NCBI GenBank assembly: GCA_950295325.1
Contig: OX485807.1
Coordinates: 19,503,666-19,567,665, forward strand
Length of the DNA: 64,000 nt
Direction of reading: 5' to 3'
Source: Polytrichum commune
Lineage: Eukaryota > Streptophyta > Polytrichopsida > Polytrichales > Polytrichaceae
Shown: positions 13,786 to 46,244 of the stretch, piece after piece
Layout: every line of letters starts with the position of its first letter
Position numbering within the stretch: the stretch's first letter is position 1
Translations under genes and position numbers: made by a program
The notes under the pieces: generated by a model
What the model was told of the DNA's origin: nothing
Seen by the model: the letters and a program-made list of their open reading frames with translations, nothing else
The model's database searches: none

Positions 13786-15181
13786 TCCTGTTGCGGACAG
13801 TTTCGTGTAGGGTCAACTTGGGGGGATCCTTATCGTGACGAGGAGGAGGATGTCGGTGCTATGTGGACGTGGTGACGGCTAGGTTTTGACGATGATGTGA
13901 AGAGTTACCTAAGTTAAGTAGTGTGATTTCTATGTGTCTGTAACCTCGGCGGGTGGTGGTGTTGAAGCGCAAGTGACGGATCACACAAATTTGTTTGTCT
14001 GTCGCAACCATACTAGGATTTGCACCGTTTGACGATGGAGTGTGGCAGAGGGGGCGGCGCTCATTGTCATCATCATCATGTGCAGCCAGAGTTGGTTGCA
14101 GGGAGGGTTGAGGGATGGGGAGCTTTCTTTTCGGGCGATTAGGCTTGTTGGTGAGAGAATTTGGTAGATCTGCCTTCTTCTAGTCCGGCTATTTATCAGT
14201 GGTCCTTTCGGCAGAAACTGAGGGTTTCTTGAGGGGTGGGGTCCCCTTTGGATTTTGACAAAGAGGGCGTTTTTGTACAAGTTTAGAGAGATAGAGGTAG
14301 AAGTTGTTCGGAGGGGAAAATCTCACACGTCCCTAAGTAGTGGAGATTGTTGACCCAAGATTTGAAGCTTTATGACCCAAGATTCTTGAAACCATCAACA
14401 AATACAGCTGCTCAAAAAATGATACTCCATAGCCACCACGTGACAACCTCAGGTGACATAATAAGTTTTTGTTAGTTCCAGGTTCTGTCCGATTTCAATA
14501 CTCACTCACTCACTCACTCCCACCTGTTTTGCAACTCAAGCTGCTAGCTTCGTGGTCAAGGGAATTTCCACTGGTAAGCCCAACTTTTGTATGGATGCCC
14601 TACCCTCTTCTCCGCAGACAGACAGAACAAAACTTGGGAAGTGAAAGTCGAGGTTTTCGCAGCTCTATAGCTTGAAGATGAGAAGCAGCCCGGTCAACAA
14701 AATGATCGTGTTCTAAAATTGTTTTTCTTCTCGACTTGCGGAACAGAGTATACCTTTTTCGGGAAGTCCGGAGGAAGCGTGGACTTCATCACTGGTGTCT
14801 CTGACAGCTGAATATGGTACCTAGCCTTGTAAGTCTTGGGTTTGCTTCGAACGGGTTTATCTACATACAAGTGGAGGATATCAAAGACTAAGCAACCTCG
14901 GATGGAGTCATGGGCTCGCTCTTGACACATTAGGGGTTGGATATGATGGCCTCTGGACTACTTTGGGACGCCGCCCTTACCGAATAATCCTGTTCCTCGG
15001 AGCGGACAACTAGAAATGAGTTTTGAAGAAACGATATTCTACACCTACTAGTGTTCGTTACTACAGATTTCTGCTTCCCTAGGTTTTTTATTTCCTTCCT
15101 TCCTTCCTTGAAACCTTTCCCAGCTCAGGAATATGCAATAAGGAAGTCTGCTCAGATTGCCAGCCAGCCAGCCAGCAAAGT
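13786..15181 (+). promoter_or_regulatory. Upstream region of the BOP-like gene
   Basis: About 1.4 kb with no supportable coding sequence. It includes a (CTCA)n tract near 14506-14520, TTCC-rich stretches near 15095 and a (GCCA)n tract just before the start codon, typical of a plant 5' leader. I could not assign a TATA box or transcription start. An open frame on the opposite strand (13981-14280) has no visible domain. Confidence 0.35.
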
Positions 15182-18100
15182 ATGCAGACATCCCAGCTGA
15201 GCTCAATGGCTTCGGAGGACTCCTCAATCAAGTCTCTCTCCACGGATTTGCTTGGCCTTCTTACGAATGGCCGATTGTTCAGTGATGTAACATTTGAGGT
15301 GGAGGGTCAGCATGTGTATGCCCACAGATGTGTGCTTGCGGCTCGGAGTCCCTTTTTCCGTATGATATTTTGTGGAGATGCCCAACTGCACAATGATCAA
15401 CAGCCCAGGCCTGGCACACCACAGATCATTCCTGTGGGCATTGTTGGCTTCGAAGTATTCAAGTTGTTGCTTCAGTTCCTGTATGGTGGAAAGTTCTCCT
15501 TTTCCTCCCCGAGTATTGCTAATGCGTGTAAGGAGAAGCTCTGTCGCCATACCCATTGCACCTCAGCAGTAGAATTTGGGTTGGAAACTTTAAATGCTGC
15601 ACACTTCTTTGGTGTTGATGAGCTCACCACCATCACTCAGGTCAGTGCAATTCCTTACTACTACTGCTACTGCTACTACTACTTGTGGCCATCCTAACCT
15701 TTGCGAGTGCGTCCATTGGAACTCACAGGAATTCCTAGATATATTTTGCTTCAAGATTTTTCGGAGATGGTGCCCTGACTTGAGTTTCCGTGAGTGCAAG
15801 CATCATCGCCTCAAGTCAATCCTATCAAGCTGTTCACTTGTATCTCCTGTTGCAACTACCTCGTTTCTCCTTCTCATTTGTGAACTAGGATCACACCTTT
15901 CTTCTAATGGTTATCCTCCTTGTTCACATTATGTGACCTAGGACTGTAATCTAAATGAGATTTTTGTCAGATGCAAAGTGTTTCAGGTCGGTGCTTATAG
16001 TTTTTCGTCAGCATCTTCAAGTTTCTCTCCTTATTTTTCTCTTGGCGTATGATACTGACATGGGGTTCATCATGCCCTACATTGTACGTGCAATGAGAAA
16101 TTCCAGCGGAATTTGGACCTATTTTGGTGTCACATGCTTTTCATATGTTCTGAACCAACCAAGCTAGTCGGTGCCTAATACTTTTCCGTGAAGCAAGAAT
16201 TACACGACTTTTTCTAAAGAGATGTCTGTATTATGACTTGCAGAAGCACTTAGGCGACATTGCTGGCCAGGCATCGATTGAAAACGTGATGCGTATGCTA
16301 GCAGCTTCACACAAACAAGAAGAAACACATCTATGGACGCTGTGCTCAAACTTAGTTGGGAAGTCAGGGCTTAGTCGAGAAACCCTGAGCAAACATCTGC
16401 CAGGTGAAGTGGTATCCATAATTGAGCAGATCCGACGGAAAACTGGTTTTGGGTATGGAGGTTCCTTGTCTACAGGTGCAATCACAGAAAATCGGACCAG
16501 TCGTATGCAAAAAGCTCTAGATTCGTCTGATGTGGAGTTGGTAAAGTTGATGGTGATGGGAGAGGGGTTGGACCTAGATATAGCCCTTGGCCTCCACTAT
16601 GCTGTTGAGAAGTGCAGCATGTAAGCACATTACTCTGAACCCTTTAATCTGTTAGAACTGTAGCCTCTCTTATAGTAGTTTACCATCAATCTTTTGTAAG
16701 TGGCTTGCAGAATTCTTCTAGTTGATCTGTTCTATAACCTTTTTGTAGTAGTTTACCATCAATCTTTTGTTAGTGGCTTGGAGAATTCTTCAAGTAGGGT
16801 TTTGAGGAGAGTTGAGTAGGGCAATTGCTGTATGGTTAGAATGGAGTGAGTATACTTTCAATTTAACCTGCATAACTGGTGTGAATCTTGTGCTGTGAAT
16901 TTAGGAAAGTTGTAAAGACACTGTTGGATCTGGGAGCAGCAGATGTGAATTTGCGCGGGGAAGATGGTCGAACACCCCTGCATATTGCAGCTGAGAAGGG
17001 AGACCCAGAAAAGATTGCATTGTTGTTGGATCATCATGCAGATCCGTGCATGCAGGCAGCAACAGGTGCAACTGCAATGGACATAGTGCGATGTCGACTT
17101 CAAGATGTTCTTAATGCAGGAGGGTACAATACAAAGAGCGACCAGAGTAGGCTAAGGATGTGCTCAGACCGTTTAGACACAGCAATTGCAGCGCTGCCTC
17201 CCATGCATATAAAACATTGTACAAAAGTGGAGAGCCCGGCATCCATTTTAACAGATCATGGGAGTAGTATGTTGATGCAAGAGGATGGTGATAATTTTCC
17301 ATCAATGAGTAGAATGATGGGGTCTTCACCTCATGGAGTTTTTAGCAACACCGACTATACCTTTCTCTCTCAAGGCACCCCACAAGGGAAAGGTAAGCCG
17401 TGGACACAGCTTGCTGAGGTACTGAATCTCAGAGTAGATGATTTATAAAAAGATGAGGCCAGGAGATCATCTTCCATTTTGAAAGCAATTTGGCAGCTGT
17501 GCTGCTCGTGGCCGAGGGCTCTCAATTTGCTCTTTTACCACATATAGTGTCTGTGGCAAGCAAAGGGATGGTAAAGACAGCTTTTCCTTTCTCTCTCTTA
17601 CACTAGAGTGTGTGGACGTCCAGAATGCCCATGCCAGGCCCACACCATTTTATGTTTAGTAAGTCTGGCCCGGACATCTTTTATTAACGAGTTGGGTCTA
17701 CTTCTGGTCCTATGTCATTTGACATTGGCTTTTCTCAACCATTTTCTACGTTTTCTCTGCCGTTTTTCTTCATTCTTTCTTAGCGAACCTGGTGTAGTAG
17801 AGCACATAAATGAGTTCTGGCTCGTGTGTGTACAATTCTGACTACTTTAGAGATGACTTTTCTGCTTGTATAGCTTCCTTCAGCGTATCATCACTGAACT
17901 TTTATAAAGATCATAAGGGCATTGGAGTTTGACAAGTTCTCTGTTTGTAAAACATAAGTGTGGACAAAATAAATGGGACATTTGAACCGTTGCTATTAGA
18001 GCATATTCACATGCAGTCGACCTTCTTATGCATAAAAAATGTTCTACAGAATTAACTCTTAGGATCCAAACAAGTCTCTGGGTCTCTGGAGTGGCCTTGC

Positions 18101-20599: not shown

Positions 20600-20656
20600 A
20601 GCGGCTTATCACACCATGGATGGAAACACCTATTTCTTTCCGGCTTAGAGTTGTTT

Positions 20657-20814
20657 GAGGGGGCCGCGCGAACGCGAGCCCCGGCTGCCACAAATTATGA
20701 TGTGTACGCCTCCCGTTGAAAGATACTAAAGTCACCAGGCCCGAAGTGCAATGGGACAGACTCCTCTAGGGAATCCCCTTATGGATCATGGATACACCCC
20801 GCCCAGGTAAGTGA
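20657..20814 (-). ncRNA. U1: U1 spliceosomal snRNA, copy 1
   Basis: Read on the - strand it begins (C)ACTTACCTGGGCGGGGTG, whose ACUUACCUG pairs with 5' splice sites. It contains the SL2 loop CCATTGCACTT (the U1A/U2B''-type loop), the Sm-site context ATAATTTGTGG and the 3' hairpin CGCG-TTCG-CGCG closed by GGGGC/GCCCC. The 3' flank CAAACAACTCTAA resembles the plant snRNA 3' box. SL3 here has wobble pairs and SL1 is changed relative to copy 4, so its activity is uncertain. Ends are approximate. Confidence 0.88.
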
Positions 20815-21288
20815 GTTCGAAGCTTGCAGCTCATGATCTTGTACAAGCCCTAATCGCTCTGGCTCGTGGATACCTAAGGGATAATCCCACACAAGAGGCC
20901 TCGTTCAATTGCTCACTGCGATATGACGATGCTTATGGCATTGTCCATAAGGAAAGTGCATGCTGCAATGATAGTTCAATGAAGCCGATTAAGTCACTTC
21001 CTCAATCGCCTCTAGGATAAAACCCCACACCGAGAAGGAGACTCATCAGTACATCATGGAACAAAAAAATATAAGTTATGCAATACTAGCCAATATACCT
21101 GAAAGTTTGAGTAGTCAGCAGCAGAGCATTCCCAAAGCCTTGAAATTACAATCTCATTCGATCGCAATCCTTGGCATTCAATGTCCATTCAATTGCAAAG
21201 ACTCCTCATTCTAACTTATGGAGAAAATTTTGATCCTAGACATCATTATCGATCTGTGTCAAGAATGTTGTCAATGGTTTGAATTTGT

Positions 21289-21450
21289 TTCCACGTCAGA
21301 CTGTAGGGTTGTGAATCCGGCATGTGGGATGCCGGTTGGGTCCAAGTGTTATACCCCGCAGAATAGTACATCTTGACGTTCCTGCAGTCTTTGGGTTTAT
21401 TCAATGGCATACTCTGCACCTCTCCTGCCTTGGGTCTTTTAGTGTTTACC
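21289..21450 (-). promoter_or_regulatory. Conserved distal block upstream of U1 copy 1
   Basis: This block lies about 475 bp upstream of U1 copy 1 and is strongly conserved with 23141-23303 and 32071-32235. Its core on the - strand, ATCCCACATG (21321-21330), matches nine bases of the plant snRNA upstream sequence element RTCCCACATCG and lies inside the dyad CCGGCAT-CCCAC-ATGCCGG. About 30 bp further on is GGAAACAA, replacing GGAAATACA of the other copies. The position is far outside the usual USE site near -70, so a promoter role is only a hypothesis. Confidence 0.4.
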
Positions 21451-22657
21451 CTTGAATAATTCAGCAATGTGTATGGATAACGCTTCTCGGCAGCATCGAC
21501 AATGTTTCTTGTGTGGACCGTAGTTTAGACCCAGCTGAAGTAAATATGACCCGTCTAAATTACGTGCGTTAGTAACTCAAAAGTTGCATTAATATTAACG
21601 ATTACAGCTTATGGGAATAGTTAACACTGTGCATGAATGTAGATAGGTGAAAGTGGTTCTCAACGATGTCAACATGTTTTAGAAGGCTAGAATCTGTAAT
21701 GTTTGCATATCATTCTGATTCCTCACAAAGAGATCGTGACATTTGCACCTGAGAATCCCAAAAGAATTGCAAGCATGCTCCCAACCTGTAACGTAGGGAA
21801 GACCAACCATGGCCAGTGACCACCAAGCATTTCTTAAAATAAACGGCGTTTGTATCAACCCCGAAATCTGGCCAAAGTGGTCACAATGAGCATCAGGAAC
21901 GCACCATGAATGCACCATTGAACTTGCTTAAGAACCAGTTATTAACTCACTTCCACAATCTAGCTATCCAATTGGCTGCAAGCTTCACTCAGAATATTGA
22001 GATTGTTGAAGTTCTGAGCATCGCCTTCAGTTCCACATGCCATCACAGATAGAAAGGAAACTTAAGCATTGACACCTCCGGGTCGATTGTAGTGAGGTGG
22101 AGAAGCACCAAGGCAAGAGATTTATCACCACAAAATCACATACGGATAATCAGAGGGCTTAACAACCTCGTAAACAAACCAAAAAGGCATGGTAGTGTAC
22201 AAGCTCCTGATCGTTTCCAACAAGGGTCGAGGGCCAAGAAGACCATTCTAGTACGGTTGCATGTTTGTTGATCCTGAGAGGGATTACCAGATGATATGTA
22301 GACAACCTCAAACAGAACAACCACAAACATCATTCTCTACAGTTGTGTCTTGCGAAAATCTACAGAACTGCACATTATCATCATCATCTAAATGCCCTAT
22401 TCATCTCCACCTCTACTTCACAGCCACTCCTATACAGCTCTTTCAATGTTAGTCAGGCATTCCAGCCGGACTGTTCTTCAGATGGGCTCCTCAAGAACTC
22501 AAATTCGCCAGATGTCAATTAATTCCAATGTCTGTTTCTCAAGCTGGATATAGAATTTAGATAAATGAGAATGTGTGGGTCAGCAATTGACTCATTACAT
22601 CACGGATGGAAATACCTAATCCTTGCGCACAATTCTTTCCGGCTTAGAGTTGTTCGC

Positions 22658-22815
22658 AAGGGGGCCGCGCGCACGCGAGCTCCCGCTCCACAAATTATGA
22701 CGTGTATGCCTCCCGTAGGAAGATACTAGAGTCACCCGGCCCGAAGTGCAATGAGGCAAGGCCCCTCTAGGCCATCCGCTTTCTGGATCATGATGCACCC
22801 CGCCCAGGTAAGTGA
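22658..22815 (-). ncRNA. U1: U1 spliceosomal snRNA, copy 2
   Basis: It has the same architecture as the other copies: TTCACTTACCTGGGCGGGG start, SL2 loop with ATTGCACTTC, Sm context ATAATTTGTGG and a GC-rich 3' hairpin. The terminal stem has an A-C mismatch (GGAGC against GCCCC) and the tetraloop is TGCG instead of TTCG. The upstream 400 bp match those of copy 4, including GAATATAGCCC about 25-30 bp before the RNA, a candidate TATA-type element. AAAACCCATAG lies about 33 bp further upstream, a weak match to the plant USE. The 3' flank GAACAACTCTAA resembles a 3' box. Confidence 0.88.
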
Positions 22816-23140
22816 ATGCTCAGTCGTCATCTTCGGGCTATATTCTTACATTCCTCGTTCCTCCCATGCCAACACTATGGGTTTTTCAAATATTTGCCAT
22901 ACTTCTTCAGCGAGTATGAGGTCAATCGTGTAGAAGAAACTCTGTAAGAGCCTAGATTTCACAATCTCACTCGATCCCAGCCTTGGCATTCAATCAACAG
23001 TCAAAGACTCCAGAGCTTACTTAAGAAACAAATTTCGATCCTGAATATCATTCCACATTTGTACCAAGGATGGTGTGAAAAGCTAGAGTTTTTCCAGGGA
23101 GAACAGATCACAAGATTTCATAGTATTAGATTTGGTTGTA

Positions 23141-23303
23141 TTTCCACGTCAGACTGTAGGGTTGTGAATCCGGCATGTGGGATGCCGGTTGGGTCCGAGT
23201 GTCATCCCCCGTGGAATAGTATATCTTTACTTTGCTGCAGTCTTTGGGTTTATTCAAAGACATACCAAACGTATTTCCTGCCTTGATTCCTATAGTGTTC
23301 ACC
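23141..23303 (-). promoter_or_regulatory. Conserved distal block upstream of U1 copy 2
   Basis: This is the second copy of the block, about 330 bp upstream of U1 copy 2. The core ATCCCACATG is at 23174-23183, inside the same 7-bp dyad, followed 30 bp later by AAATACAA. The block also has an open frame (GMSLNKPKDCSKVKIYYS) that is partly shared with copy 1, so a coding origin cannot be excluded. Confidence 0.4.
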
Positions 23304-24645
23304 AAGGCAAGGGTCCATCAATGTGTAGGGGATATCTACTCACAAAAAGAATTGCAATCATTCTCCCAATTGTAATAGGCTAGGGAAGAATCACCAACGA
23401 ACCTTTGCTTTCAAGACATGGCAATTGTATCCACCCCGAAATGTGGCCGAGTGTTAATATTGAACGCACTAAGCATGCGGTTTAAAGATGGAGGATGCTA
23501 ATAGGGATTAAACCTGCTTCTCAACCGGTCACTTTATCACTGCCTCAATCTAGCTCTCCAATGCAAGCAGGCTTCACTCACTTTGTCTTACGAAGCCTAT
23601 TGAGATTGTTGAGAATTACCTCCAATTGTACATCGCCGTATTGTTTAGAGCATGGAGCGGCATCGGAGTTAGGCAGAGTCAGATAATAGCGTCATAGATA
23701 GAAAGGTAATTACAAAAATTTCAGACCTTCGGGTGGATTGAGATTTTGTTTCATTTCTCAACCAACAAAGTCAGTGCTTTGATATGCAGATGAAGGTCTT
23801 AAGCAATAGAGGTCGCTGCTTGATGTAGCAGATCATTCTTCGTCCAAATTCATTGGCAAGTTCAAATTAAACTGCTCAGATGCACATTTTTCTTCTTCTG
23901 AACAGTGCATTGTGGGAAGGAAGGGATTACCATTCTGTCACTAAATATCTTTGCGTCGGTAGTGTCGGTGTGGCCATCTCCTAATTAGTTCATACAAGAG
24001 ACCTACTTGTTCTTGTAGAATTTCAAATACAAGGAGCTCCATTCGTAAACCTTCACCACCGTCGTAACATTTCAACAAAAGTATGCATTTGCGAAACTCA
24101 CATTGCTGAGACTCTGAGTCCACAATAAATCAAGACAATTGGATGTACATGAGACATGGAGAAGCACCAAGGCAAGAGGCCATCACAAAATCACGGGCTG
24201 ATCATTGAGGGGTCTAACAACCTCGTAAACAAATCAAAAGGCATGGTATTATATAAGCTTCTGATCGCTTCTAACAGCCAAGGGCCAAGGATTCCAGTTT
24301 AGTGCGGTTGGATGCTTGGCGATCCTGAGAGGGATTACCAGTTGATACTTAGACAACCATAATGTTCAGTCTATCCAGTTGTGTGTCGAGCTAATCTACA
24401 GAACTGCACATCATCCAAGTTAAATGCCCTATTTACCTTCGCCCTCTACTTCACAGCTACTCCTACCTACAGTTCTCTCAAAGTTAGTTAGTTGGACTAT
24501 TCTTCAGATGGGCTTTATCATGAAATTGATTCACCAGATGTCAGATAATTCTAATGTTTGTTTCTGAAGCCCCATGAAGAATTTGGATATATCTGCGATA
24601 TTGTAGAAGACCTAACTTTAATGTTTGAGGTGAATCATCACCTGT

Positions 24646-25624
24646 TTACAGCTCCATAGCTGTGACACCCTCCTGAAGCTCCTCGACTGTGGGCACAGGT
24701 CCGTTCTCAGTCGTTTGAGAATTAGGTGGTGCGCTGAAGACAATGGGGAACTTGGTGACCCGGGGTTTGTCCGAAAGGATATTTCGCTGAACTCGGTCGA
24801 TGAGGAGTTTTGTAGGCGGCTCCTCACGCAGTTGCTCATCCACGTACTCATTCCTCACGTAGTAACCAACCCTTATGAACTCTTGTCCCATGTAGGAGCA
24901 TGTCAACAACAACACGGTGACTCCCAGGATGTCCTCCTCCGCAATGTGAGCTGCCTCAGGCGGATCGGCCTGTAAGAAATTCATATTTGCAAATCAGGTC
25001 ATGTCATATCTGCACATGAGCAGGGGATTTATGGAGTTTGTTAACAATGAGACCGCCTGCACTGATGAGGAGCTTCAAACTATTGAGATTGTTTGCCTGA
25101 CCACACTCATTGAATCATCACCACCAACAGATTGAATAAATTCCACTCAATTGAGAGTCTCTCCCCTGGAACTCGGACCTCTCAGGAGAGAACACGCAGT
25201 TTGACGGGCACGAGTTTGATGAACAATTGAGAAGAATAGGACGTGCCTGAAAAATGAACCTGTAGTTGCCAACATTGACAGGACCTACCATCACACTTTC
25301 CAGCACTTGGTCGTACTTCTCATCCTCAGCGCAACCTACATATATAAGCTTCCATTCCAAATCTGCAGTGACAGATTAACCATGAGAAACGACAATGGGA
25401 GATGTAATGCATTCTAATTACGTTTCCACTCACTTGCAATTGTGCAACTTAGAAATCGGAAACTAGCCACCTAGGACGAGCATTAGGGATGTGTGGATGA
25501 GAAGAAACAACTGACCGTCCTTCAGCGGGACGAGGCATTCGTAGGAGATATCAAATTGCAAAGGATTGAGGAACATCGACGGGTTGTCGAGCACCATTAC
25601 ATTCATCACATTAATTGCACTCAT
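24646..25624 (-). CDS. ASF1: Histone chaperone ASF1
   Basis: Three exons on the - strand, 25516-25624, 25247-25362 and 24646-24969, give 549 nt and 182 aa. ASF1 binds H3-H4 dimers and hands them to CAF-1 or HIRA in chromatin assembly (family knowledge). The conserved core is almost complete: LDNPSMFLNPLQFDISYEC, LEWKLIYVG, VGPVNVGNYRF, ADPPEAAHIAEEDILGVTV, LLLTCSYMGQEF, RVGYYVRNEY, RNILSDKPRVTKFPI. A short divergent tail with several acidic residues follows. Intron 1 is GT-AG. Intron 2 has to be GC-AG: exon 2 must end ...TTTCAG and is followed by GCACGT, and the acceptor TTACAG|GCCGAT restores the frame exactly. The next GT would add 4 nt and break the frame. The gene faces away from the duplicated U1 unit, which abuts its 3' end. 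Confidence 0.95.
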
Positions 25625-26095
25625 GGTCTCCTATGTGTATAATGTGTGTCGAGCTAATGAATAATCCTAAGCTCTGAACTCCACACCGCAGCAAGTCCTT
25701 GCGGAGAGGGGTCGGAGCAGTTCGTATCTCCTCGCGTGAGACATACGCTTCCGAAGAGTGAGTCTAACTTAACATGTCCCCCGCTGATGGATATTTAACT
25801 ACGTCGTCCTCCAATTGCGCAATCGAAAGGCAGAGTTAATAGCATAATGAGTCAAAGAAGTGCCATAGAATTAGTCAGGGCCGACGCATTGGTGTTTGCG
25901 AGGCTTCTGCAACACGCTGTTGCCTGCAAGCGAAGGTCATGGCCAGCAGTAGGACCAGGCAAAAGCGCAGCTCGATCGGGTGATGCATTGCGAAATCCGG
26001 TAGCTATAACAAAACCTTGCTCCGTGTTTCCTTTGATGTCCCTAATGTCACTTCTGCTTGCGAAATCACTCAATTGCTTCTGACTGGTTTGAAAA
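25625..26095. promoter_or_regulatory. ASF1 upstream region
   Basis: This gap between the ASF1 start codon and the H2B relic presumably holds the ASF1 promoter. The frame at 25847-26083 (+) and its opposite frame are open but show no domain. I could not assign a TATA box or an E2F site. Confidence 0.3.
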
Positions 26096-26293
26096 ATGCA
26101 CTATTCTCTGGATATCTTCGAGGAGCTTGCGCAGGAGGCCGGCAGACTTGCGCGTTAGAACAAGGAGGTCGAGATTGATCACTCCTCGCTAGATCCAAAC
26201 TGCAGTTCCCTTCATTTGATTATGCCCGTGGAGTTGGCCAAGTTTGTTATCTCCGAAGGCGCCAAGGCTGTCACCAAATTGACAAGCGCTTGA
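26096..26293 (+). pseudogene. Histone H2B C-terminal fragment
   Basis: Translation gives DIFEELAQEAGRLAR, then an in-frame stop (TAG) where H2B has the Tyr of ...LARYNKK. The middle matches H2B only in a shifted frame (IQTAV). The end then reads MPVELAKFVISEGAKAVTK and LTSA followed by TGA, matching the H2B C-terminus (LPGELAKHAVSEG...). The N-terminal half is absent. A stop, frame changes and truncation mark a dead fragment. It lies between ASF1 and U1 copy 3. Confidence 0.85.
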
Positions 26294-26727
26294 GTGTTCC
26301 TTCGTTTGCTTTGCACGAAACCCTGGTGTTTCAACATCACCACCGATATTCAGAAACCACGTCTACTTTGAGATGCACTGCTGAAAGTGTGATCGTTTTC
26401 CTGGAACTTAGAGAAGACAAATTCTACGTGATAGATGACGAATTTTGACAAGTAGCACCAGACAAAAGTAAATGCTCGGAATCAGCTGTATCCAATCACC
26501 AGCATTTCCTGTGGAAGGAATACCATCCTTGTTGAAGCAAAGGTACATGTGTGCAAGGGGAAAAAAAATATACATAATCCGCCAATCCGAAAAATGAGCA
26601 AGTTATCAGCGTATGCGTTTCAATGGAGGACTAGCGACGTGAGAGGCAGTGTGGTGATATCGTGAATTACCAAGTGAAACCTTTCACCAATTACGGAATC
26701 AACTTTTGTGCAGATTAGAGTTGTTTG

Positions 26728-26887
26728 GGAGGAGGCCGCGCGAACGCGAGCCCCCGCTGCCACAAATTATGACGTGTATGCCTCCCGTGGGAAGATACTA
26801 GAGTCATCTGGCCTAAAGTGCAATGGGGCAAGCTCCTCCAGGCCATCCACTTTATGGATCATGGATACACCCCGCCCAGGTAAGTGA
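26728..26887 (-). ncRNA. U1: U1 spliceosomal snRNA, copy 3
   Basis: It begins CTCACTTACCTGGGCGGGGT and keeps the SL1 context (CCATGATCCAT), the SL2 loop ATTGCACTTT, the SL3 hairpin TCTTCC-CACG-GGAGG, the Sm context ATAATTTGTGG and the 3' hairpin with CGCG-TTCG-CGCG. One base change (GCCTCC) weakens the last stem. The 3' flank CAAACAACTCTAATC resembles the plant 3' box. About 100 bp of upstream flank match copy 1 (GTACAAGATCATGAGCTGCA), but no distal block is found upstream. Some downstream flank (CAGCTGATTCCGAGCA, near 26475) matches copy 4. Confidence 0.9.
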
Positions 26888-28259
26888 GTTCGAGATTGCA
26901 GCTCATGATCTTGTACAAGCCCTAATCGCTCTGGCTCGTGGATAGCTATGGGATAATCTCAAAGGCGAGTACTGCAATGATCCAGAGAGAGAAGGAGAGG
27001 CCTCGTTCAATTCCTTACTGCGATGTATAAATGTCATTGTCCATAAACAGTGGGCATGCTGCAACACCATTGTTCACTTGCAACATTCAAAATGGGTAAG
27101 TGGAGGACTGCCACAGTAGTTTTGATGACATCGACAAACTCTACTTCGCTTCTCCAAAATGGCTAACACATGAAAGTGTGCCCCACAAACTACTGTATCG
27201 AAGGCACTTTCCTCATCCCTCACCTAGCAGCTAGGGTTCATGACATTATTGACGATGGCCATAGTCAAGTACTTGTCCAAGTTTTGAAAACACTACAAAT
27301 GAACAGTAGTTTTTCAAAAGCTCGGGTTCTTAGGTTCAAGTCTACACTCTAGACTGACTGGTCAATTGACATCCTCAAATACCAAAGAACCTACCATGAT
27401 GGAACCTTTGGCTATTGCTCATAAGAACACCCAAAATCATTCGCAATGAAACAAAACATGGCGGACTCAATGAGGGGTCAATATTGTAGACTCGTAACCT
27501 CATCAATGATATCGAAGTGAGCTTGAGGTCTTATCACTTTAGCATGCTCCAATAAAGCGCATAAATATCATGTAGACGTACGTGATGTCAAACGAGCAAC
27601 ATCTGATATCGAAGTGAGCTTGAGGTCTTATCACTTTAGCATGCTCCAATAAAGCGCATAAATATCATGTAGACGTACGTGATGTCAAACGAGCAACATC
27701 TGACATCTACACACAAGCAAAAACATAGTCATCTCCAATCAAATGACAAACTACAACATCGTTGAAACAAAGTATAAACAGGAGACCACATAGTGGGAAG
27801 CTATGGGAGATGTTCTTCAATGTCACAACACTTGATGAACAAGCCCCTCTATGGCAACATGATTATATTATGGTAGAAACATAATGCATTCAATTTACTC
27901 TCATGAAAGAAGGCGGTGCTTCGATCATGATGTGAGAAAGTAGCTACATGTTCAATATCCTCATTGAACACACAGAGGTAGGTCGAAAGCCATCCATATA
28001 TATATATATCCACCACTAGAGTTACAGAGTGTGATCATGTGTATCTTATTTGATGTCTGCAGCAACTAGCTAGCTCCACATTCCACATGAGGCTCTGAAG
28101 CAGACCATTGTCCATTTCAGAATTACATATAGAATCAAAGACTAACTTGAAGATGAAGCAACACCACATATAAATCACGATGGTGGCAATATCAGAGTCA
28201 TCTCTCTCGAGCAGACAATTAATCCCCACACATATACATCATGACTTGCATCCTCTAGT
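26888..28259. other. Spacer with a 97-bp tandem duplication
   Basis: The first roughly 180 bp are homologous to the upstream flank of U1 copy 1. The rest has no supportable gene; see 27508-27701 for the perfect duplication. A short (AT)n run lies near 27997-28010. Confidence 0.45.
27508..27701. repeat. Perfect 97-bp tandem duplication
   Basis: Two adjacent units (27508-27604 and 27605-27701), each starting GATATCGAAGTGAGCTTGAG, show no difference on reading. In such an AT-rich, decayed region this implies a very recent event or an assembly artefact. No function is evident. Confidence 0.9.
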
Positions 28260-28493
28260 TCAAAGTTCATCATACTGCTCACTGCAACATCCTTCATTAT
28301 TACTCTGCAATTCCACATATTGGGCTGTGGTTTCCACATATGTCACAAGGGAACTGTAAACATGTATGCGGCACGTCGCCATCTTCCATCCCTGTTCACT
28401 TGAGGAGATTGCGTGAGTCGAGCGCTGTAATTCTTTAGCCCTCTTGGATCGATTGAATGACCACAGCTTGTCCTCCCAGTTTCCACACGTTAC
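28260..28493 (-). CDS. Candidate terminal exon, unknown protein
   Basis: On the - strand a textbook acceptor (branch-point word TACTAAC, a pyrimidine-rich stretch, TTTCTGCAG) precedes a 78-codon open frame that ends in TGA. It begins VTCGNWEDKLWSFNRSKRA and contains WKMATCRIHVYSSLVTYVE. The amino-acid mix looks protein-like, but I do not recognise the family. No convincing upstream exon was found at 28500-28900, so it may be the stranded last exon of a broken gene, or chance. Confidence 0.3.
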   Translation of the reverse strand, partial: VTCGNWEDKLWSFNRSKRAKELQRSTHAISSSEQGWKMATCRIHVYSSLVTYVETTAQYVELQSNNEGCCSEQYDEL

Positions 28494-30059
28494 CTGCAGA
28501 AATTGAAGAACCGATAATACGTTAGTACTAGTTTCCAGATCTTAAGAGCTTAAATTTCATATTTGACTGAAGCAAGCAAGTGATGTCATGCGACAGAGAA
28601 CTATACGGATGCACATGCTTTGATAACATAAAGGAGAACAGCTCGATCGAAAGACCGAAATTGTTGAAAGCATCAGTAGCATGAATGCCAAGAATTGATT
28701 GCTGTGTGTTTACAGACAATCGCTTTTTGCACGGACAACATGACCTACCGCACGGGGAGTTCTTGAATGTGACGGTAAGTAGGAGTTCTAAGTACCTCTA
28801 CTTATACCTCTGCTTTCAAATGGGAGTTTTACGGTGTAAATATGAACTTATGAAAATATATTTATGTTCTCTCTCTTTTTAAATAGAGGTGCTACCATCA
28901 TCATTGGAAAGATGACTACATATATTCTCACAAAAACAAGTGCCTCAAATTGATTCTATCTTATCTTCCTACGGACCTTCTTATAATGTTTTCCTCCTCT
29001 CTCTGGAGCCCACCCTTCCTATCTCATGAGTTCTTTATGTCAACCTCATGTAGCCTTGCTTTCATGTGCATTGTGTGCTCTTTCAAATTTTGGTTTTGGT
29101 TATGTGGTTCAAAAAAGAAGAAGATGCATGCAAAAAGCGATGAATATAACCAAAGAAGAATAGAGGCATATACCTAGGTACATTAATTATCACATGAACC
29201 AATATTGTTTTTGACATCTTGGTTATCCAATGCATATTCTTTTAATTTAGTTTCAACATGATCATATGTTTGCATGAGCCCTTGACCCAATAGGTCCCTA
29301 AACCTAAATTCTTTTAACCCCATCCCTAGCTCCCATGCCTCACAGTGCCCCTTCCACTCATTTGGTTGCCCGTTATTTAAATTCTAAATATTTATGAGAC
29401 TCCCCAAACTAATATGAACCCAAATGGAACAAAGCCCACATTTTTGGATCACAATCACAACTATGACATGAAAATGCGGGCTTGTTTGGTCATGGTAGGG
29501 TTGACACATGGAGGATAGCTCATGGCTACACGCGCCTTCTTGTGTTGTGATCTCTTATTAGGACTTTGGATGTTCTTTCCACGCAAAACATTGTATTCGA
29601 GGTAATCGAATCTTACAAGTTGCACGCAACGTCTTGTATACTCTCTTTGTCCTCATAGGTAGTAGAAGTGTCGGTATACAGTTAGAACCAATATAAATAT
29701 ATTTCACATTGTAATAGATGGCCATTACTTTTGCCAAAAAAACAAGAATCAAATCAATTTAGCTAGGTGCTTGGGTGAAACCATACGAACCATAGCCAAA
29801 TCTTGTTGCAATGAAAATATAATATGTGGGCCTTGTTCCATTTGGGGACATGGTGTGGGAGGCCCATAACCATCTACAATTCTTATAACAACAATCAATG
29901 AGAGCAAGCATAATATTATTCAGCCATGTCGGTCAGCTCCATGACCCTGGAATATATCAATTAAATTATGTGCCCCCCTTGAACAAAGTAAGAATATCTA
30001 TTTATTATTCATACATTCAAGTTGACACATGGAAATTCAGGTAGAGTTATACTCCCGGT
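28494..30059. other. Intergenic stretch
   Basis: Only one short + strand segment (28716-28774), flanked by TTTACAG and GTAAGT and open in one frame (NRFLHGQHDLPHGEFLNVT), looks exon-like; I cannot link it to a gene. The remainder shows nothing supportable. Confidence 0.4.
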
Positions 30060-30470
30060 CACGGGGCAGTCACTTCATTGTCAAGTTGAACACCACGTGC
30101 AAACAAAGTTTGCTACCCCTGTATTACATGCCATAGATCATTTTAAATTTTATGATATTTTTTCTACATATAATGAACCATTGATAGTATTTTTTGTATA
30201 TTTTTTTGAATTTTTTAGTCATCCTCATTTTTGTAGTAATTGTTTTAGTTCAATTATGCGTCATTCTATTTAGAAACGGTATGCTTTATCAAAAAAAACA
30301 AATCATCAAATTTGGTTATCATTTTTTACTATGTAATAGATACCGTGTATATCTACTCATGAAAAAAAATTGATAGAAATTTGACCCATTTTGGTGATGC
30401 TTTATGTAAAAAGTAGATTTTTTTTGTTCGCACGTGGTGTTCAACTTGACAATGGAGTGACCTCCCTGTG
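30060..30470. mobile_element. hAT-type MITE
   Basis: The element is 411 bp. The 8-bp direct repeat CTCCCGGT flanks it exactly (30052-30059 and 30471-30478), as expected for hAT elements. The terminal inverted repeats are about 50 bp: the left begins CACGGGGCAGTCACTTCATT and the complement of the right begins CACAGGGAGGTCACTCCATT. Both continue into GTCAAGTTGAACACCACGTG. The interior is AT-rich and non-coding. Confidence 0.88.
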
Positions 30471-31037
30471 CTCCCGGTATTATTCACAAGAACCATTATT
30501 CATCTTGGTATTATTTACTAAAAATGTTATTTGTAGCAGCACACTCACATGAATTCGTACATGCATCAATTTCTTCCTACTTTCTAAGTTTGTTCCCATG
30601 AGGGTAAGATAATGGAGGCCCATGTCAAATGCTAAATATAAAATAGAACACAACCATGCAGTTGAATACTGTTATGATTGACAACCAAATATGGAAGCTT
30701 AGAAAAAGTCTAGAAAACTTTGGGTAGGAATAACCAATTTGTGGTAACTAATAATTGCATGTCTTTGATTTCCCTTGGTTATTTCATCGCCTCTTGCATA
30801 CCTCTATATAGAATGCAAAGAACTAAGGTACACAGAGTAATAGACTACCTGTATACTATATTAGAAAACATAACATAGACTGATGAATAGAAACCTAAAA
30901 GATATGGTTGATAGCAGTCCAACTCCATATCATACAAGATTGAAGGTCAATGACTATATTGTTGCTAATTTGTAGCCAGCGGAATATAGCTCACTTTGCA
31001 GAATTCACAGCAAATTGTAGTCCTACACTATGATTAA

Positions 31038-31538
31038 GGCCCATTTTACACCTAGAGGCCGGGCCAATTCGTTGTGTAAGAGGCTTGAAATCCTCACTTG
31101 TGATTGGCCAAAAGGTTGAAATCAGCCCCAACTCCTTTACACCTAGAGACCGGGCCAATTTGGTGGTATGAATTTTTTAATTAAAAAATGCATGGTGTGA
31201 CACGGCCCGAGCTCATTGAATTGGGTGCACTCAAAATGAAAGGCCAATGTCAAATTTCAATTAAATAAACTTCTTTTTGATGAAATATGATTTTTTTAGC
31301 GAACCATATCCATTGGATTATGTGAGAATATGAACGGCTCTATGCTAGATTATGCTAGATCCATTGGATTATGCTAGATTTATTGAATCGGCCTAGCTTC
31401 TTGGCCCTAAGGCCTTTACATATGGGAAAATTGGCCCCCATTATAATCTTATTATAATGTGTAGTTGAGATCGGCCTCCAACCCAAAAGGGGCTGAAATT
31501 TCGTGTAATTGGCCCGGTCTCTAGGTGTAAAGCAGCCC
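31038..31538. mobile_element. PIF/Harbinger-type MITE, copy C
   Basis: The 501-bp element is flanked by TAA on both sides (31035-31037 and 31539-31541). The left end reads GGCCCATTTTACACCTAGAG and the complement of the right end reads GGGCTGCTTTACACCTAGAG, both followed by a CCGGGCCAATT word. An internal tandem repeat (ATTGGATTATGCTAGAT) lies near 31340-31380. It is non-coding. Confidence 0.75.
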
Positions 31539-31864
31539 TAAGTCTTACCTAATCTGAATCCAATACCTTGCTTTTATTAACTTCAATGATACTATTTCCA
31601 CAAAAGAATGCTTGCACAACTTAGAGCACATGTGCAGTAAATTGGAGAGAGGGAATTATCCTATACAACCATACCTCACATCCATCCAATATAAAAACTT
31701 GACCCCTACAAGTTTGTGGCCGATTCATCTCAATGAACTTGAACTAGACAAATGCACAATCTTTAAAGCTTATTCCGATGTCATATCAATAATAAACAAA
31801 TTATGATCCTCCAGGTTGCATACTATTTCATGGCTTTTATGTTGAATGAATGAGTATGCGATAA

Positions 31865-31892
<28 letters not shown>
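31865..31892. repeat. (CT)n microsatellite
   Basis: A 28-bp pure CT run at the left margin of the U1 copy 4 unit. Confidence 0.9.
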
Positions 31893-31896
<4 letters not shown>

Positions 31897-32070
31897 CCCA
31901 GAAAGTCAGCGCCTACCAACAATCTAACAGACAAATCCTCAGGCATTCTTCTAGACAGGGCGAGAAGGAATTGTTCCTGTTCCTGTTCTTGTCTGCACAA
32001 GATTACATTGTCGTTGCTGCCAACAAACGTTGTTTGCTCATACACATTGCTAGATACTTGCGTTCGTGCA

Positions 32071-32235
32071 GTGAACACTATAAGAGCCAAGGCAGGAGAC
32101 ATGCTTGGTATGTCTTTGAATCAACCCAAAGATTGCAGCAAAGCAAAGTTATATTAATCCATGGGCGATGATTTTCGGACCCAACCGGCATCCCACGTGC
32201 CGGATTCACAACCCTACAGTCTGACGTGGAAATAC
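32071..32235 (+). promoter_or_regulatory. Conserved distal block upstream of U1 copy 4
   Basis: This is the third copy of the block, about 330 bp upstream of U1 copy 4 and in the same relative orientation as in copies 1 and 2. The core is ATCCCACGTG (32190-32199), with one base different from the other copies; the 7-bp dyad is kept except for that base. It is followed 30 bp later by AAATACA. Confidence 0.4.
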
Positions 32236-32566
32236 ATTTTAACCCTATCCCGAGGAGATTGTCGTAGTGATTCCTGCTCGCCAGAAAACTTTTGCAAAGC
32301 TCTACAACATCCTTGACACAGATCAATAATGATGTGTAGGATCAAGACTTGTTTCGTAAGTAAGCATGAGGAGTCTTTGAATGTTGATTGAATGCCAAGG
32401 ATTGCGATCGAGTGAGGTTGTGATTTCGAGGCTCTTGCAGAGTTTCTTCTACACGCTTGACCTCGTACTCACTTGAGAAGTTTGAGAAAGATTTGAGAAA
32501 ACCCATAGCGTTGGGTTGGGCGGAACGAAGAATGTAGGAATATAGCCCTAGATGAAGACAAGGAAC

Positions 32567-32727
32567 TCACTTACCTGGGCGGGGTGTATCCATGATCCAT
32601 GAGGTGGATGGCCTTAGGGGAACTTGCTCCATTGCACTTTCGGGCCGGGTTACTCTAGTATCTTCCTACGGGAGGCATACACGTCATAATTTGTGGCAGC
32701 GGGGGCTCGCGTTCGCGCGGCCCCTTC
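32567..32727 (+). ncRNA. U1: U1 spliceosomal snRNA, copy 4
   Basis: This is the best-preserved copy. In order: CACTTACCTGGGCGGGGTG (5' splice-site recognition), SL1 with CCATGATCCATGAGGTGG, SL2 loop CCATTGCACTTTCGGG, SL3 TCTTCC-TACG-GGAGG, Sm context CATAATTTGTGG, and the 3' hairpin GGGGC-T-CGCG-TTCG-CGCG-GCCCC. GGAATATAGCCC sits about 25-30 bp upstream and ACCCATAGCG about 30 bp before that, a spacing like the Pol II-type USE-TATA arrangement of plant U1 genes. The 3' flank is CAAACAACCCCAA. It is the only + strand copy and lies in an inverted duplication relative to copies 1 and 2. Confidence 0.93.
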
Positions 32728-34491
32728 CCAAACAACCCCAAGCTGGAAAGAAATATGTACAAGAATTATTGGTTTCCATCCACGGTGTAACAGGTCACGC
32801 GATATTCCATGAAACTACAACATTGTTTTACATATTGCTAATCCTTCAATACACAGAAGCTACCATATCTTTCAGACTGGCGAAAATTGTATACTCGCGC
32901 ACAAATCTACATCAGTACTTCAGAAACAAGCATTATTCTCCTACCTCAGGAAATGTATATCGGACATGCCTTCATTCGATGTAGCTGATTCCGAGCAAGG
33001 TCCATCTAGGAGAATGGGGGTGCTCTCGATTTGTAGATTTCCATGAAGAAGCGCAGATTCTCACTAGGGCTTCTTCTTGGAAATATATGCAATTCATGCG
33101 ATCAGGAATCATTCTGTTGGACTATATGACATTTTCTAAACGAGGTCGATGTGTTTGAATGTATGGTGAAGGGCATAAACTCTTCCCCAAGAAAACTATG
33201 CAACCTCGGATACTTGTCGGTGTTCATTGGTATGGCAAATAGGACAAGAAATGCAAGAACTGTCATCGGTTTCATTTCTCTGCTTCATCTCTAGATTAGG
33301 ATGGAGCATGAACACAACAACGAAGGCTTGCAAATTATGTAGCCCATGACTTAATCTTATATCAATAAAGATGGGCAACATATAAATAGCATCTGGACAC
33401 ATCAACATCAGCATCACCAAAGGTTACACACTAGTTTTTCACGAGGCATGTGTGCCTACATTCAAAGAAGCACGTGCTATATTTGAAGCACTTCTCACAT
33501 GCATGAAAGTCGTCCCAAGTTCCAACATGGTTACCAAATGGTGTAGTAGTAGCTTTGGTCACATTTATAATATAAGAGTCGCATACTTCTTCAATCCCCT
33601 CATTCAAGCTTCATGAACAAAGAAAATTGTCTATAATGAGGTTTTGATTGTGTACCTAAAATCACATGTTCACAAGAACTACAAACATGATCAAAAATAT
33701 ATGGCTGACTTAACTGTGATCGAAGTTCAATTAACACCTAGCCACATAAGATAAGTACCACATAGGGTACACTTCTCTTAACATGAACATGAACGAAAGT
33801 TCTACTATGATTGTAAATTCCCGTCAACAAAAACGTCAACAGAACCTATGGGCACGCGTACATCCCTCACTTAAACCTATGCACACAAGACACGTTTCTT
33901 ACAAAAATGGAGGCAGAGAGGACAGATGGAAGTGAAAATTGAACAATTGCAAGTGAGGAAGAACAGATCTGGTGTAGTTGATATACATACAACATCATGA
34001 GTAATACAAGGAGGCGTGCCCTAAGCTTAATCTCTACAACAAGAAATGCACATTTTTGTGTCGGTGCTAATAAGTGCGGGATTCTGTCCTTCCACTCGGA
34101 CCTGCTCATCGCGTGAGAAAATTGCCACAACATCAAGGACGGCAGGAGTTCATCAAATATTTCTATGTACAAATATCGGTCCACTCTCCAACATCGAAGA
34201 ATCTCCTCGTAGTGTTGGAACTTCCTATTTGTCGAGTTTGTAGGCATTGGCCAAACAGTCACCTCGAATGCAGAGTGTTCCAGTTCAACTAAAGCCTTCC
34301 AGGGTTTAGCCTCCTTCCTCAAACCCTTGCCCAGTCTTCGGCTGCAACGGTGAAGATCGCATCAACAAACTGCAGCTATGGCAGAAGCATCAGAAAACTG
34401 ACCATCCTTAACGGTGTGGATAAGATACACCTCCATGAAGTGACGGCACTGAAGAGGGAGCAGCAGACAGAAGGAGATAAAATTTGATGAA
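32728..34491. other. Intergenic stretch, 3' side of the 266-aa gene
   Basis: The first roughly 250 bp are 3' flank of the U1 unit. The - strand frame at 33867-34322 (151 codons) ends about 170 bp downstream of the stop of the next gene and may be 3' UTR; it shows no domain. Nothing else is supportable. Confidence 0.45.
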
Positions 34492-42078: not shown

Positions 42079-43601
42079 TTACGAGGTGGCATTGTACTCC
42101 ATCCCTATTATTTCACTTAACATCTCATGCCTATCCCTCGCTAAAGTCTTTGTACGAATATCCGCTATCATATATTGCGTTGGACAATATTCTAGCTCTA
42201 CAACATTGTTTTCAATTTTCTCTCTAATAAAATGATGTTGCACATCTATATGTTTTGACCTATCATGGTTGGTTGGGTTTTTAGCTAATGCCATAGAACC
42301 TTGGTTGTCGCACATCATGGTTGTCGCCTCCTCTTGTGCACAACCTACATCCTCCATTAGTTGTCTTACCCAAATCGCCTTCCTCATGCATCGGTTCATG
42401 GCCATGTACTCCGCCTCCATTGTGGATTGAGCCACCGTTTGTTGTCGTTTGCTATTCCACGACACGGCCCCGTCTCCAACGAAGAAAATGTATCCGGAGG
42501 TAGACCTTCGGTTCTGCACGTCACCGGCCCAATCCGCATCCGAATAACCTTTAAGGTTTATGTGTTGGCCTCCGATACGCAACTTCATCTCATGATGGTG
42601 CCCTTCAAGTACCGCATGATTCGTTTCACAGCCATCCAATGCATCGGACCCGGTTTCGACATAAACCGACTTACCACGCTTACCGCAAATGCGAGGTCCA
42701 GTCTTGTGGCCACCATTGCGTACATCAACGACCCCACCGCTTCTTGATACGGAATGTCATTCATTTCGTGTGAATGCTCCTCGTATTCCTCCTCCGAAAG
42801 CTTCGCCAATGAGGTCTTGGTCTCGAGCGGGGTTGAGATGGACTTGCAATTAATCATGCCGAATCGCTCCAAAATGGTTTCGATGTAGCTTCGTTGATGC
42901 ATGGTGATGGTGCGCGTCCTCCTATCCCGCTGGAAATGGACTCCGAGGAAGAAATGCAACTCGCCGAGGTCACTCATCTCGAACTCCTTCCCGAGGCTAG
43001 ACTTCAATTCGTTGATCACGTCCACGTTGCTTGCCAAGATGATGAGGTCATCTACATATATGATTACAATCACAATGTAGTCGCAAGTTTGTAGAACATA
43101 CAACAAGTGGTCGGCATGGCTCCTCGCAAAGCCTCTATTCACAAAGAATATGTGAATGCACTCGTACCATGCTCGTCCGAATTGCTTCAATCCGTAGAGC
43201 GCTTTCTTCAACTTACACACGAGATGCTCGCGGCCCTTTTGGACAAACCCCTCCGGTTGCTCCATGTAGATGACCACGTGCAATTCGCCATTCAAGAATG
43301 CGGTTTTGACGTCCATTTGATGCATTTCCAACCCCATGGAGGCCCCGATTGCGAGAATGACTCGTATGGTGTTGAATTTGGCCACGAATACAAATGTTTC
43401 ACCAAAATCCACACCTTCCACTTGCGAGCACCCCTTGGCCACCAACCTTGCTTTGAAACGCACCACCACGCCGTTGGCATCCTTCTTCGTGCAAAACACC
43501 CACTTGCACTTCATGGCCTTGCGGCCTTCGGCAATGGGGCCAACTCCCACGTGGCGTTGGCTATGAGAGATTCGTACTCCTCTTGCATAGCCGACTCCCA
43601 C
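42079..43601 (-). pseudogene. Copia reverse transcriptase-RNase H region
   Basis: The frame 43601-42585 carries the copia RT: KCKWVFCTKKDANG, RFKARLVAKGCSQ, MDVKTAFLNGEL, KKALYGLKQFGRAWY, the active-site YVDD (in VIIYVDDLIILAS) and the downstream DIPYQEAVGSLMYAM. The frame 42639-42079 carries RNase H: GYSDADWAGD, RRSTSGYIF, SWNSKRQQTVAQSTMEAEY and a conserved DNQGSMALA. A frame change at 42585-42639 separates the two, and the RT frame is not the integrase frame. Catalytic residues are present, so loss of function comes from the frame breaks. Confidence 0.92.
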
Positions 43602-44890
43602 CCGCTCGCATCACTCGATTCAAATGCTTCTCTCAAGTTTCTAGGTTGCCCCACGATTGCCATGTTTGCGTGCTCATTGTCTTGGGGTTGAGGAATGTGG
43701 TTCTTCCACCATTCCCCAAGAGGTTTACGTGGCCTATCCGGATACCTAGAATTGCCTATGGTCTCATTGCCATCTTGCGGTGGTGGAGGTGGTTTGGTTG
43801 CGGTTTTCTTACTGGCGTTAAGTTTCGATGCCTCCGCGCTACGAGTGGATTTCGCGGCCGGTACTTCGGCCTCCCACTCGTCCTCAATGTTCGGCTCCTC
43901 CTCGTCCGGCTCCGAAACGTCGCCGCTCGCCTCCAACTCCTCCACTTCCGATTTGGGGGATATGTCCACCTTCACCGCCGGTACTTCTTCAACTCTCCCA
44001 CTTGGACAATCCTCCAAATGCGTTTTGTCTTCGAAAAACACCACGTCCGGACTCTTGATGATTTTCTTCGTCTCCAAGCAAATGAGGCGACACGCCTTCG
44101 TGCCTTCGCAATATCCGAGGAATAAATACTTGACGCCCTTGGCGTCCAACTTGGTTCGCCTTTGATCCGGCACCTTCGCGTAAGCCACACAACCGAAAAC
44201 CCGCATGTGCGAGACGTGCGGCATCCTCCCGCTCCACGCCTCCTCGGGTGTCATTCCTTCAACCGCCTTGGTTGGACACCGGTTGCATACGTACGCCGCA
44301 TTGCACACCGCCTCCGCCCAAAATTCATGGCCGAGGCGTTGGGCATGAATCATGTACCGTGCCATCTTCACAATGGTACGGTTGGCTCGCTCCGCCACGC
44401 CGTTTTGTTGCGGCGTATAAGGTGATGAGGTTTGCCGTGCAATGCCATGTTTGCTCAAAAAATCATCAAATGCCTTTGAAATGTATTCTCCCCCGTTATC
44501 CGACCTAAGAACCTTCACTACGTGCTCCGATTGCCTCTCCACCAAGGTTTTCCATTCTTTGAACCTTGTCAACACTTCCTTCTTGGACTTGAGCACGTAC
44601 ACCCACATCTTGCGCGAAAAGTCATCAATGAATGTGAAAAAATACCTTGCGTCCCCAATGGAAGGCGTTTTCATCGGCCCGCATACGTCGGAATGCACGA
44701 GCTCCAAGATCTTGGTGGCGCGGGTGCCTCCGTCCGTGGGGAATGGTCGCCTCGCTTGTTTGCCCTCTACACATCCTTCGCATGCGAAGGAATGCACGTC
44801 GCCTTGCACCGCTCCCACGTCCATTCCGCTCACCATGCTTTGGAGCAATTTTACGCTATTGGCGTTGAGATGCCCAACCTCTTGTGCCAA
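43511..44890 (-). pseudogene. Copia integrase region
   Basis: The frame carries the zinc-binding end CEGCVEGKQARRPFP and the DDE core with Asp in HSDVCGPMKT, Asp in LRSDNGGEY and Glu in QQNGVAERANRT. It continues with KYLFLGYCEG and a long acidic/proline linker to the start of RT (ESAMQEEYESLIANATWEL). The frame differs from gag-protease upstream (overlap 44851-44890) and from RT downstream (overlap 43511-43601), so at least two indels or frameshifts flank it. Confidence 0.92.
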
Positions 44891-46122: not shown

Positions 46123-46244
46123 TTTCAAACCGAATGCAAGCTCCCACTCACTCAATGTAGCCCAAGGGTTTAGAAACCCTCAAGGAAGTTAGAAATTGCC
46201 AAAACAAAGAAAATGGACTTAATTTATCATCCAATGTTTTCCCA

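Follow-up and report, generated by a model that had tools for sequence, protein, structure and literature searches.

Four genes for the U1 small nuclear RNA (snRNA) lie within a 64-kb stretch of the Polytrichum commune genome (C5:19503666-19567665, hereafter the window; the genome spans 407.8 Mb, about 406 Mb of it in seven large contigs), and the gene for the histone chaperone ASF1 sits between the second and the third of them. An earlier note on this DNA, made from the sequence alone, had claimed three U1 genes on the minus strand and one on the plus strand, with ASF1 among them, and had read the group as a mixture of functional, variant and decaying copies produced by local duplication and inversion. 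When the window was scanned with cmscan against Rfam, the U1 family RF00003 gave exactly four matches at its gathering cut-off of 69.5 bits, each full length (model positions 1-166) and each at the coordinates and on the strand claimed. The covariance scoring that the note had proposed as a check places all four genes, named a to d in order of position, above this cut-off (Table 1) rather than at the uniformly low scores that would have spoken against them. No other Rfam family, U4 included, matches the 64-kb window at the gathering cut-off, and no tRNA gene was reported in it. Given that U1 provides the only Rfam matches, a mixed snRNA cluster resembling the U1-U4 pairs of Arabidopsis is ruled out.

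The motifs that define the RNA are unaltered in all four genes, as the earlier note had held. The 5' end ACUUACCUG, which is used for 5' splice-site pairing, the loop AUUGCACUU of stem-loop 2 (SL2; SL1, SL3 and SL4 likewise) and the Sm site AUAAUUUGUGG are each present in four of four. The U1A-binding SL2 loop AUUGCAC and the Sm site AAUUUGUGG are intact throughout; in the human U1 structure, AAUUUGUGG is the Sm nonamer and U1-70K contacts the SL1 loop (PMC4383343). The A29-A36 closing pair described in the same paper is possible in every window gene. The sequence ACTTACCTG occurs four times in the 64 kb, always inside a U1 gene, against 0.41 occurrences expected, and none of 100 shuffles reaches four; together with the cmscan scores, this rules out chance or artefact as the source of the four matches. 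The claimed retention of the 3' hairpin stands with a qualification, in that the hairpin is kept in all four genes but gene b carries the tetraloop UGCG instead of UUCG and lacks one base right after the Sm site, besides one base deleted in SL1 and one inserted. Across all six pairs the window bodies are 88.4-92.3% identical, and each carries 8-13 substitutions relative to the family consensus.

These genes belong to a large family. At least 63 distinct U1-like copies exist, with members on each of the seven large contigs, and of these copies 61 score above the gathering cut-off and two (L048 and L049) below it; genome copy numbers given here are lower bounds, 42 of 8811 candidates having been scored in the covariance search and 40 of 75 in the DNA search. 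The covariance search recovered at least 42 U1 genes above the cut-off, gene c among them, and the exact pattern from the 5' end to the Sm site has 54 matches, compared with none for the reversed control. With at least 63 copies genome-wide, a cluster peculiar to the window is ruled out. Because U2, U5 and U6 are also numerous (at least 46, 47 and 41 genes above cut-off, respectively), a U1 family of this size is nothing out of the ordinary here. One copy, L054 (C4:19131300-19132456; 72.4 bits), has an extra T within the U1A loop (ATTTGCAC) and is likely a pseudogene; the pair, promoter and tree counts below leave it out and cover the other 62 of the 63 copies.

Upstream of each window gene stand an element resembling the plant upstream sequence element (USE) and a TATA-like box (Table 1), and both recur across the family. 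CCCATA with at most one mismatch is found at -68 to -64 in 61 of the 62 copies (38 exact, L043 being the exception); in 92 control windows farther upstream the count averages 1.3 and never exceeds 6. Exact TATA-like words, searched as four words taken from these U1 genes, stand at -31 to -27 in 32 of the 62 (control mean 0.3, maximum 4). The USE-like word also precedes seven of eight U2 copies (in the remaining one, L069, it stands at -80 only) and four of four U5 copies, at positions -67 to -71, as well as five of six U6 copies, at -63. Its longer form GTCCCACATCG, a plant form of the USE, was seen upstream of one U5 copy only. The ASRG survey prints the plant USE as RTCCACATCG (PMC545797). 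Assignment of the window genes as U1 comes from the RNA itself, and their assignment to the RNA polymerase II class of plant promoter from the upstream elements alone. Two proximal promoter types can be told apart in the window, type I upstream of genes a and c and type II upstream of genes b and d.

Table 1. Features of the U1-ASF1 locus (coordinates in the window; promoter positions relative to the U1 5' end).
Feature	Position	Strand	Details
U1 gene a	20657..20814	-	RF00003 101.0 bits; 13 substitutions and 1 deletion relative to family consensus; upstream region mosaic; USE altered
U1 gene b	22658..22815	-	RF00003 83.6 bits, lowest in window; rank 60 of 61 above gathering; promoter intact
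U1 gene c	26729..26887	-	RF00003 103.4 bits; 1.1 kb upstream of ASF1 start codon, same strand; USE-like and TATA-like elements intact
U1 gene d	32567..32727	+	RF00003 109.7 bits, E=9.2e-27; 9 substitutions, 2 insertions; inverted copy of gene-b segment
USE-like element, gene a	20875..20880	-	CCCTTA (one change), -66
USE-like element, gene b	22876..22881	-	CCCATA, -66
USE-like element, gene c	26947..26952	-	CCCATA, -65
USE-like element, gene d	32502..32507	+	CCCATA, -65
TATA-like box, gene a	20838..20843	-	TACAAG, -29
TATA-like box, gene b	22838..22843	-	ATATAG, -28
TATA-like box, gene c	26910..26915	-	TACAAG, -28
TATA-like box, gene d	32540..32545	+	ATATAG, -27
ASF1 histone chaperone gene	24646..25624	-	Exons 25624-25516, 25362-25247, 24969-24646; PF04729 in two exons, then a third
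ASF1 downstream flank	24157..24592	-	Repeated at 22098-22566; 75% over 474 columns
Copy of ASF1 downstream flank	22098..22566	-	Adjoins gene b, on its downstream side
Gene-b segment (U1 and upstream flank)	22595..23327	-	Source or sister of inverted copy 32041-32790
Inverted copy of gene-b segment, contains gene d	32041..32790	+	80% over 753 columns
Gene a and c-type (type I) proximal promoter	20637..21067	-	Matches type-I gene C5:17185265-17185736
Gene a distal upstream, b/d type (type II)	21136..21875	-	21276-21875 matches C5:17175482-17176055

The ASF1 gene of the window is intact, with a complete spliced frame of 182 amino acids, and it has been copied together with its U1 neighbours. Within the window, a copy of the ASF1 downstream flank adjoins gene b and the gene-b segment recurs in inverted orientation around gene d. 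Genes a and c match at 89.5% over 20645-20889 and 26715-26961, an alignment of 248 columns. Gene a has a mosaic upstream region, in which the nearest 250 bases are of type I and the sequence from 21136 onward is of type II, with the join between 21067 and 21136; in the self-comparison of the window, 21136-21271 and 21276-21513 match 32433-32304 and 32244-31996. The local duplication and inversion that the earlier note had proposed are thereby borne out, but they are not merely local, for further copies of the unit stand at C5:17.17-17.19 and 17.33-17.34 Mb. When 34.5 kb from these blocks (C5:17174000-17188500 and 17325000-17344999) were compared with the window, they proved collinear with it over several kilobases in the same order of type-I U1, ASF1 and type-II U1. 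There, however, ASF1 was found only as pieces, of which one has a stop and another a frame change, and such pieces adjoin U1 genes at C5:17.180 and 17.341 Mb. From the collinear paralogous blocks, the self-repeats of the window and the mosaic gene a it follows that block duplication, with rearrangement, gave rise to the present copies of the ASF1-U1 unit.

A separate retroposition or transposition of each copy, with no block duplication, is hardly credible at this locus. U1 retropseudogenes are frequent in animals, but a retroposed RNA would not bring promoters and kilobases of flank with it, and the homology found here spans promoters, distal flanks and ASF1 over several kilobases. The ASF1 search, in which 18 of 18 candidates were scored, also found two more ASF1 genes on C2, at 3.48 and 3.50 Mb, and none of the 63 listed U1-like copies is near them. 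Mirror-image U1 pairs (two and two, inverted) are seen at C4:7301294-7306743 and C6:15650848-15658277; taken with the two 17-Mb blocks on C5, they indicate that inverted U1 duplication is recurrent in this genome. Two smaller peculiarities of the locus are the second intron of ASF1, a GC-AG intron whose donor at 25247 reads CAG followed by GCACGT, and a perfect 97-base tandem duplication at 27507-27700, upstream of gene c.

The U1 bodies of the 17-Mb blocks vary in their likeness to one another. Seven of the eight score 116.6-120.3 bits and L056 scores 108.4. Five of the eight are 98.7-100% identical; L006 stands at 95.5-96.8% to these five, and L016 and L056 at 89.8-91.7%. L006, L016 and L056 compare with the rest of the 17-Mb bodies at 86.6-96.8%. 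L009 and L010, both of the 17.18-Mb block, have one type-I and one type-II promoter between them, and their bodies are identical over 157 bases while their proximal promoters align no better than shuffled sequence. The simplest reading would be gene conversion among some of the 17-Mb bodies, reaching neither the window nor L016 and L056.

These comparisons bear on the proposal that the window genes are four U1 isoforms for different tissues or stages, with the promoter type as the switch. Two clearly distinct proximal promoters do precede U1 genes in three blocks, and developmental switching of snRNA isoforms is described for Drosophila and vertebrates (PMC4291461). Nevertheless, the identical L009 and L010 bodies stand under both promoter types, so promoter type is not a marker of RNA type, and two of the four window copies lack detectable pairing constraint; we therefore regard the proposal as improbable. 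We give slightly less credence still to a related version, in which one and the same U1-ASF1 unit met different fates, all four bodies beside an intact ASF1 having drifted apart and five of eight beside ASF1 pieces having stayed near-identical despite unrelated promoters, with the diverged copies under distinct promoters acting as U1 isoforms that have their own expression and tuned protein binding at SL1 and SL2. This version is weakened because three of the eight 17-Mb bodies have diverged to the same or nearly the same extent as the window bodies.

Constraint on the individual copies was gauged with a hand-drawn U1 structure (helix H and SL1-SL4) in which every consensus pair is standard, the pairs broken by the substitutions of a copy being compared with those broken in 1000 random placements of an equal number of substitutions. 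Gene d, with 9 substitutions and 2 insertions, has no broken pair against 3.9 expected (P=0.01), and gene c, with 11 substitutions, has 2 against 4.8 (P=0.085). Gene a, with 13 substitutions and a deletion, has 4 broken pairs, plus one through the deletion, against 5.6 (P=0.25); gene b, with 8 substitutions, 2 deletions and 1 insertion, has 2, plus one through a deletion, against 3.5 (P=0.22). The three core motifs carry no change in any window gene, where 7.9 would be expected over the four together. Across all 62 copies, 65 pairs are broken against 247 expected, and 22 core sites are changed against 111 expected, a figure that leans on copies found partly by way of those same core motifs. 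In each of four comparisons of a window gene with one of its 17-Mb paralogues, moreover, the body proved better kept than the flanks, as with gene c and L009 (91.8% against 71-78%).

From these counts gene d appears to be the best candidate for a working gene and gene c is probably usable, while constraint has probably been relaxed in genes a and b, gene a probably decaying and gene b being of doubtful status. The mixture of functional, variant and decaying copies proposed earlier is a candidate reading that fits the absence of broken pairs in gene d and the near-random counts in genes a and b, on a pair test that is weak for single copies. Variation in the SL1 loop is not by itself a sign of decay, since 30 different SL1 loop sequences are found among the 62 copies. 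An SL1 loop GAUCC is likewise rejected as a sign of lost U1-70K binding, as GATCC, GATCT and GATCA loops occur across the family and the A29-A36 closing pair can form in all four window genes.

All four window genes might instead be pseudogenes, with U1 supplied by better-scoring genes elsewhere. The window copies do rank low among the 61 by covariance score (gene d 35, c 52, a 58 and b 60), and their bodies are only 88.4-92.3% alike. We nonetheless consider this unlikely, though less so than the isoform proposals, because gene d keeps every pair despite 9 substitutions, the core motifs are untouched in all four genes, the promoter words are exact in genes b, c and d, and the bodies are consistently better kept than their flanks.

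Several observations count against the reading of the locus as block-duplicated, ordinary U1 genes in differing states of upkeep. The pair test treats the family consensus as ancestral and substitutions as independent, excludes pairs lost to gaps, was made on four genes with no correction for four tests, and is weak for single copies; it detected no two-sided compensatory change in the four window genes. The promoter words were picked after inspection of the alignment. Gene b, with an exact USE-like element and a TATA-like box, is a poor fit to plain decay. Constraint on the RNA should make the bodies more alike than the sequence before them, yet between genes a and c the 80 preceding bases agree at 94.7% and the bodies at only 88.5%, although the lower likeness of the bodies would fit decay of gene a. 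The plant 3' signal, searched as the angiosperm consensus CAN3-10AGTNNAA in bases 140-230, is found in just 2 of the 62 U1 copies; because the other 60 are without it, this lineage may use a different signal. Finally, the body tree is poorly resolved, with 31 of 54 inner branches open and the bootstrap not settled, and the window copies do not form a single clade in it (2 changes are needed). Its resolution being too poor, we discarded the tree as a guide to the order of duplication.

One clade of this tree, composed of L028, L029, L034, L041 and L042 (C2:11.48-12.95 Mb), has support of 100/99. Its members carry 21-30 substitutions and only 1-4 broken pairs, against 8.8-12.0 expected, with 2-5 two-sided compensatory changes each, and L029 and L034 adjoin U6 genes. 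To judge by these counts, a maintained U1 isoform would more likely be found among these five than among the genes of the window.

On balance, we are confident that the window holds block-duplicated, ordinary plant U1 genes of a known kind, and less sure of the status of any single copy; the earlier interpretation is partly supported, being right in outline and too local. The ancestral unit would have consisted of a U1 gene with a type-I promoter, ASF1 and a U1 gene with a type-II promoter, copied several times along the chromosome. The block in the window, with its intact ASF1, would have been joined by the inverted type-II U1 segment with gene d and by the mosaic copy, gene a. The USE-like and TATA-like promoter of each gene would direct transcription by RNA polymerase II. 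In the resulting RNA, ACUUACCUG would base-pair with 5' splice sites, and a ribonucleoprotein would assemble as SL1 bound U1-70K, SL2 bound U1A and AUAAUUUGUGG bound the Sm ring; usable U1 might be expected from gene d and probably from gene c.

Known systems provide close parallels. In Arabidopsis thaliana, U1 is the most divergent of the major snRNAs, with 14 genes of which 10 are judged likely active (the active copies averaging 87% identity) and some are judged pseudogenes (PMC545797). Like that family, the U1 genes described here are multi-copy, occur dispersed and in small clusters, and have promoters with USE and TATA elements; the window genes fit this kind of U1 in the features tested except the angiosperm 3' signal and, in genes a and b, the stems, whose broken pairs are about as many as random mutation would give. 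In contrast, the Arabidopsis clusters are U1-U4 pairs in a set of 14 copies, whereas here at least 63 U1-like copies exist, the window has no U4 and ASF1 is linked. The U1 genes here also resemble the snRNA isoform families of Drosophila and mouse, in which several U1 paralogues differ at few positions (PMC4291461). Drosophila, however, has five U1 genes with three variable positions, while the window copies lie 8-13 substitutions from their consensus.

The surrounding genes are plant-like, among them, at 15083-17448, a BTB exon and an ankyrin exon that may, from their domain order, be part of an NPR1-like gene. An NB-LRR gene at 54361-57423 has one long frame, is RPW8/Rx-like and contains many similar leucine-rich repeats, and a Ty1/copia-like retroelement was recognised by eye in the open reading frame list only, at 42079-46179 on the minus strand.

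Clustered and partly degenerate U1 families are already known from Arabidopsis, repeated block copying is a common route by which genes of this sort increase in number, and the locus is otherwise ordinary. It suggests that an snRNA array may spread along with a neighbouring protein gene. Were the different fates of the U1-ASF1 blocks indeed to reflect diverged isoforms, they would amount to a natural experiment on the conditions under which an snRNA gene escapes concerted evolution. One genome here holds U1 copies kept identical next to others that are drifting, and thus offers a testable case for how concerted evolution starts and stops.

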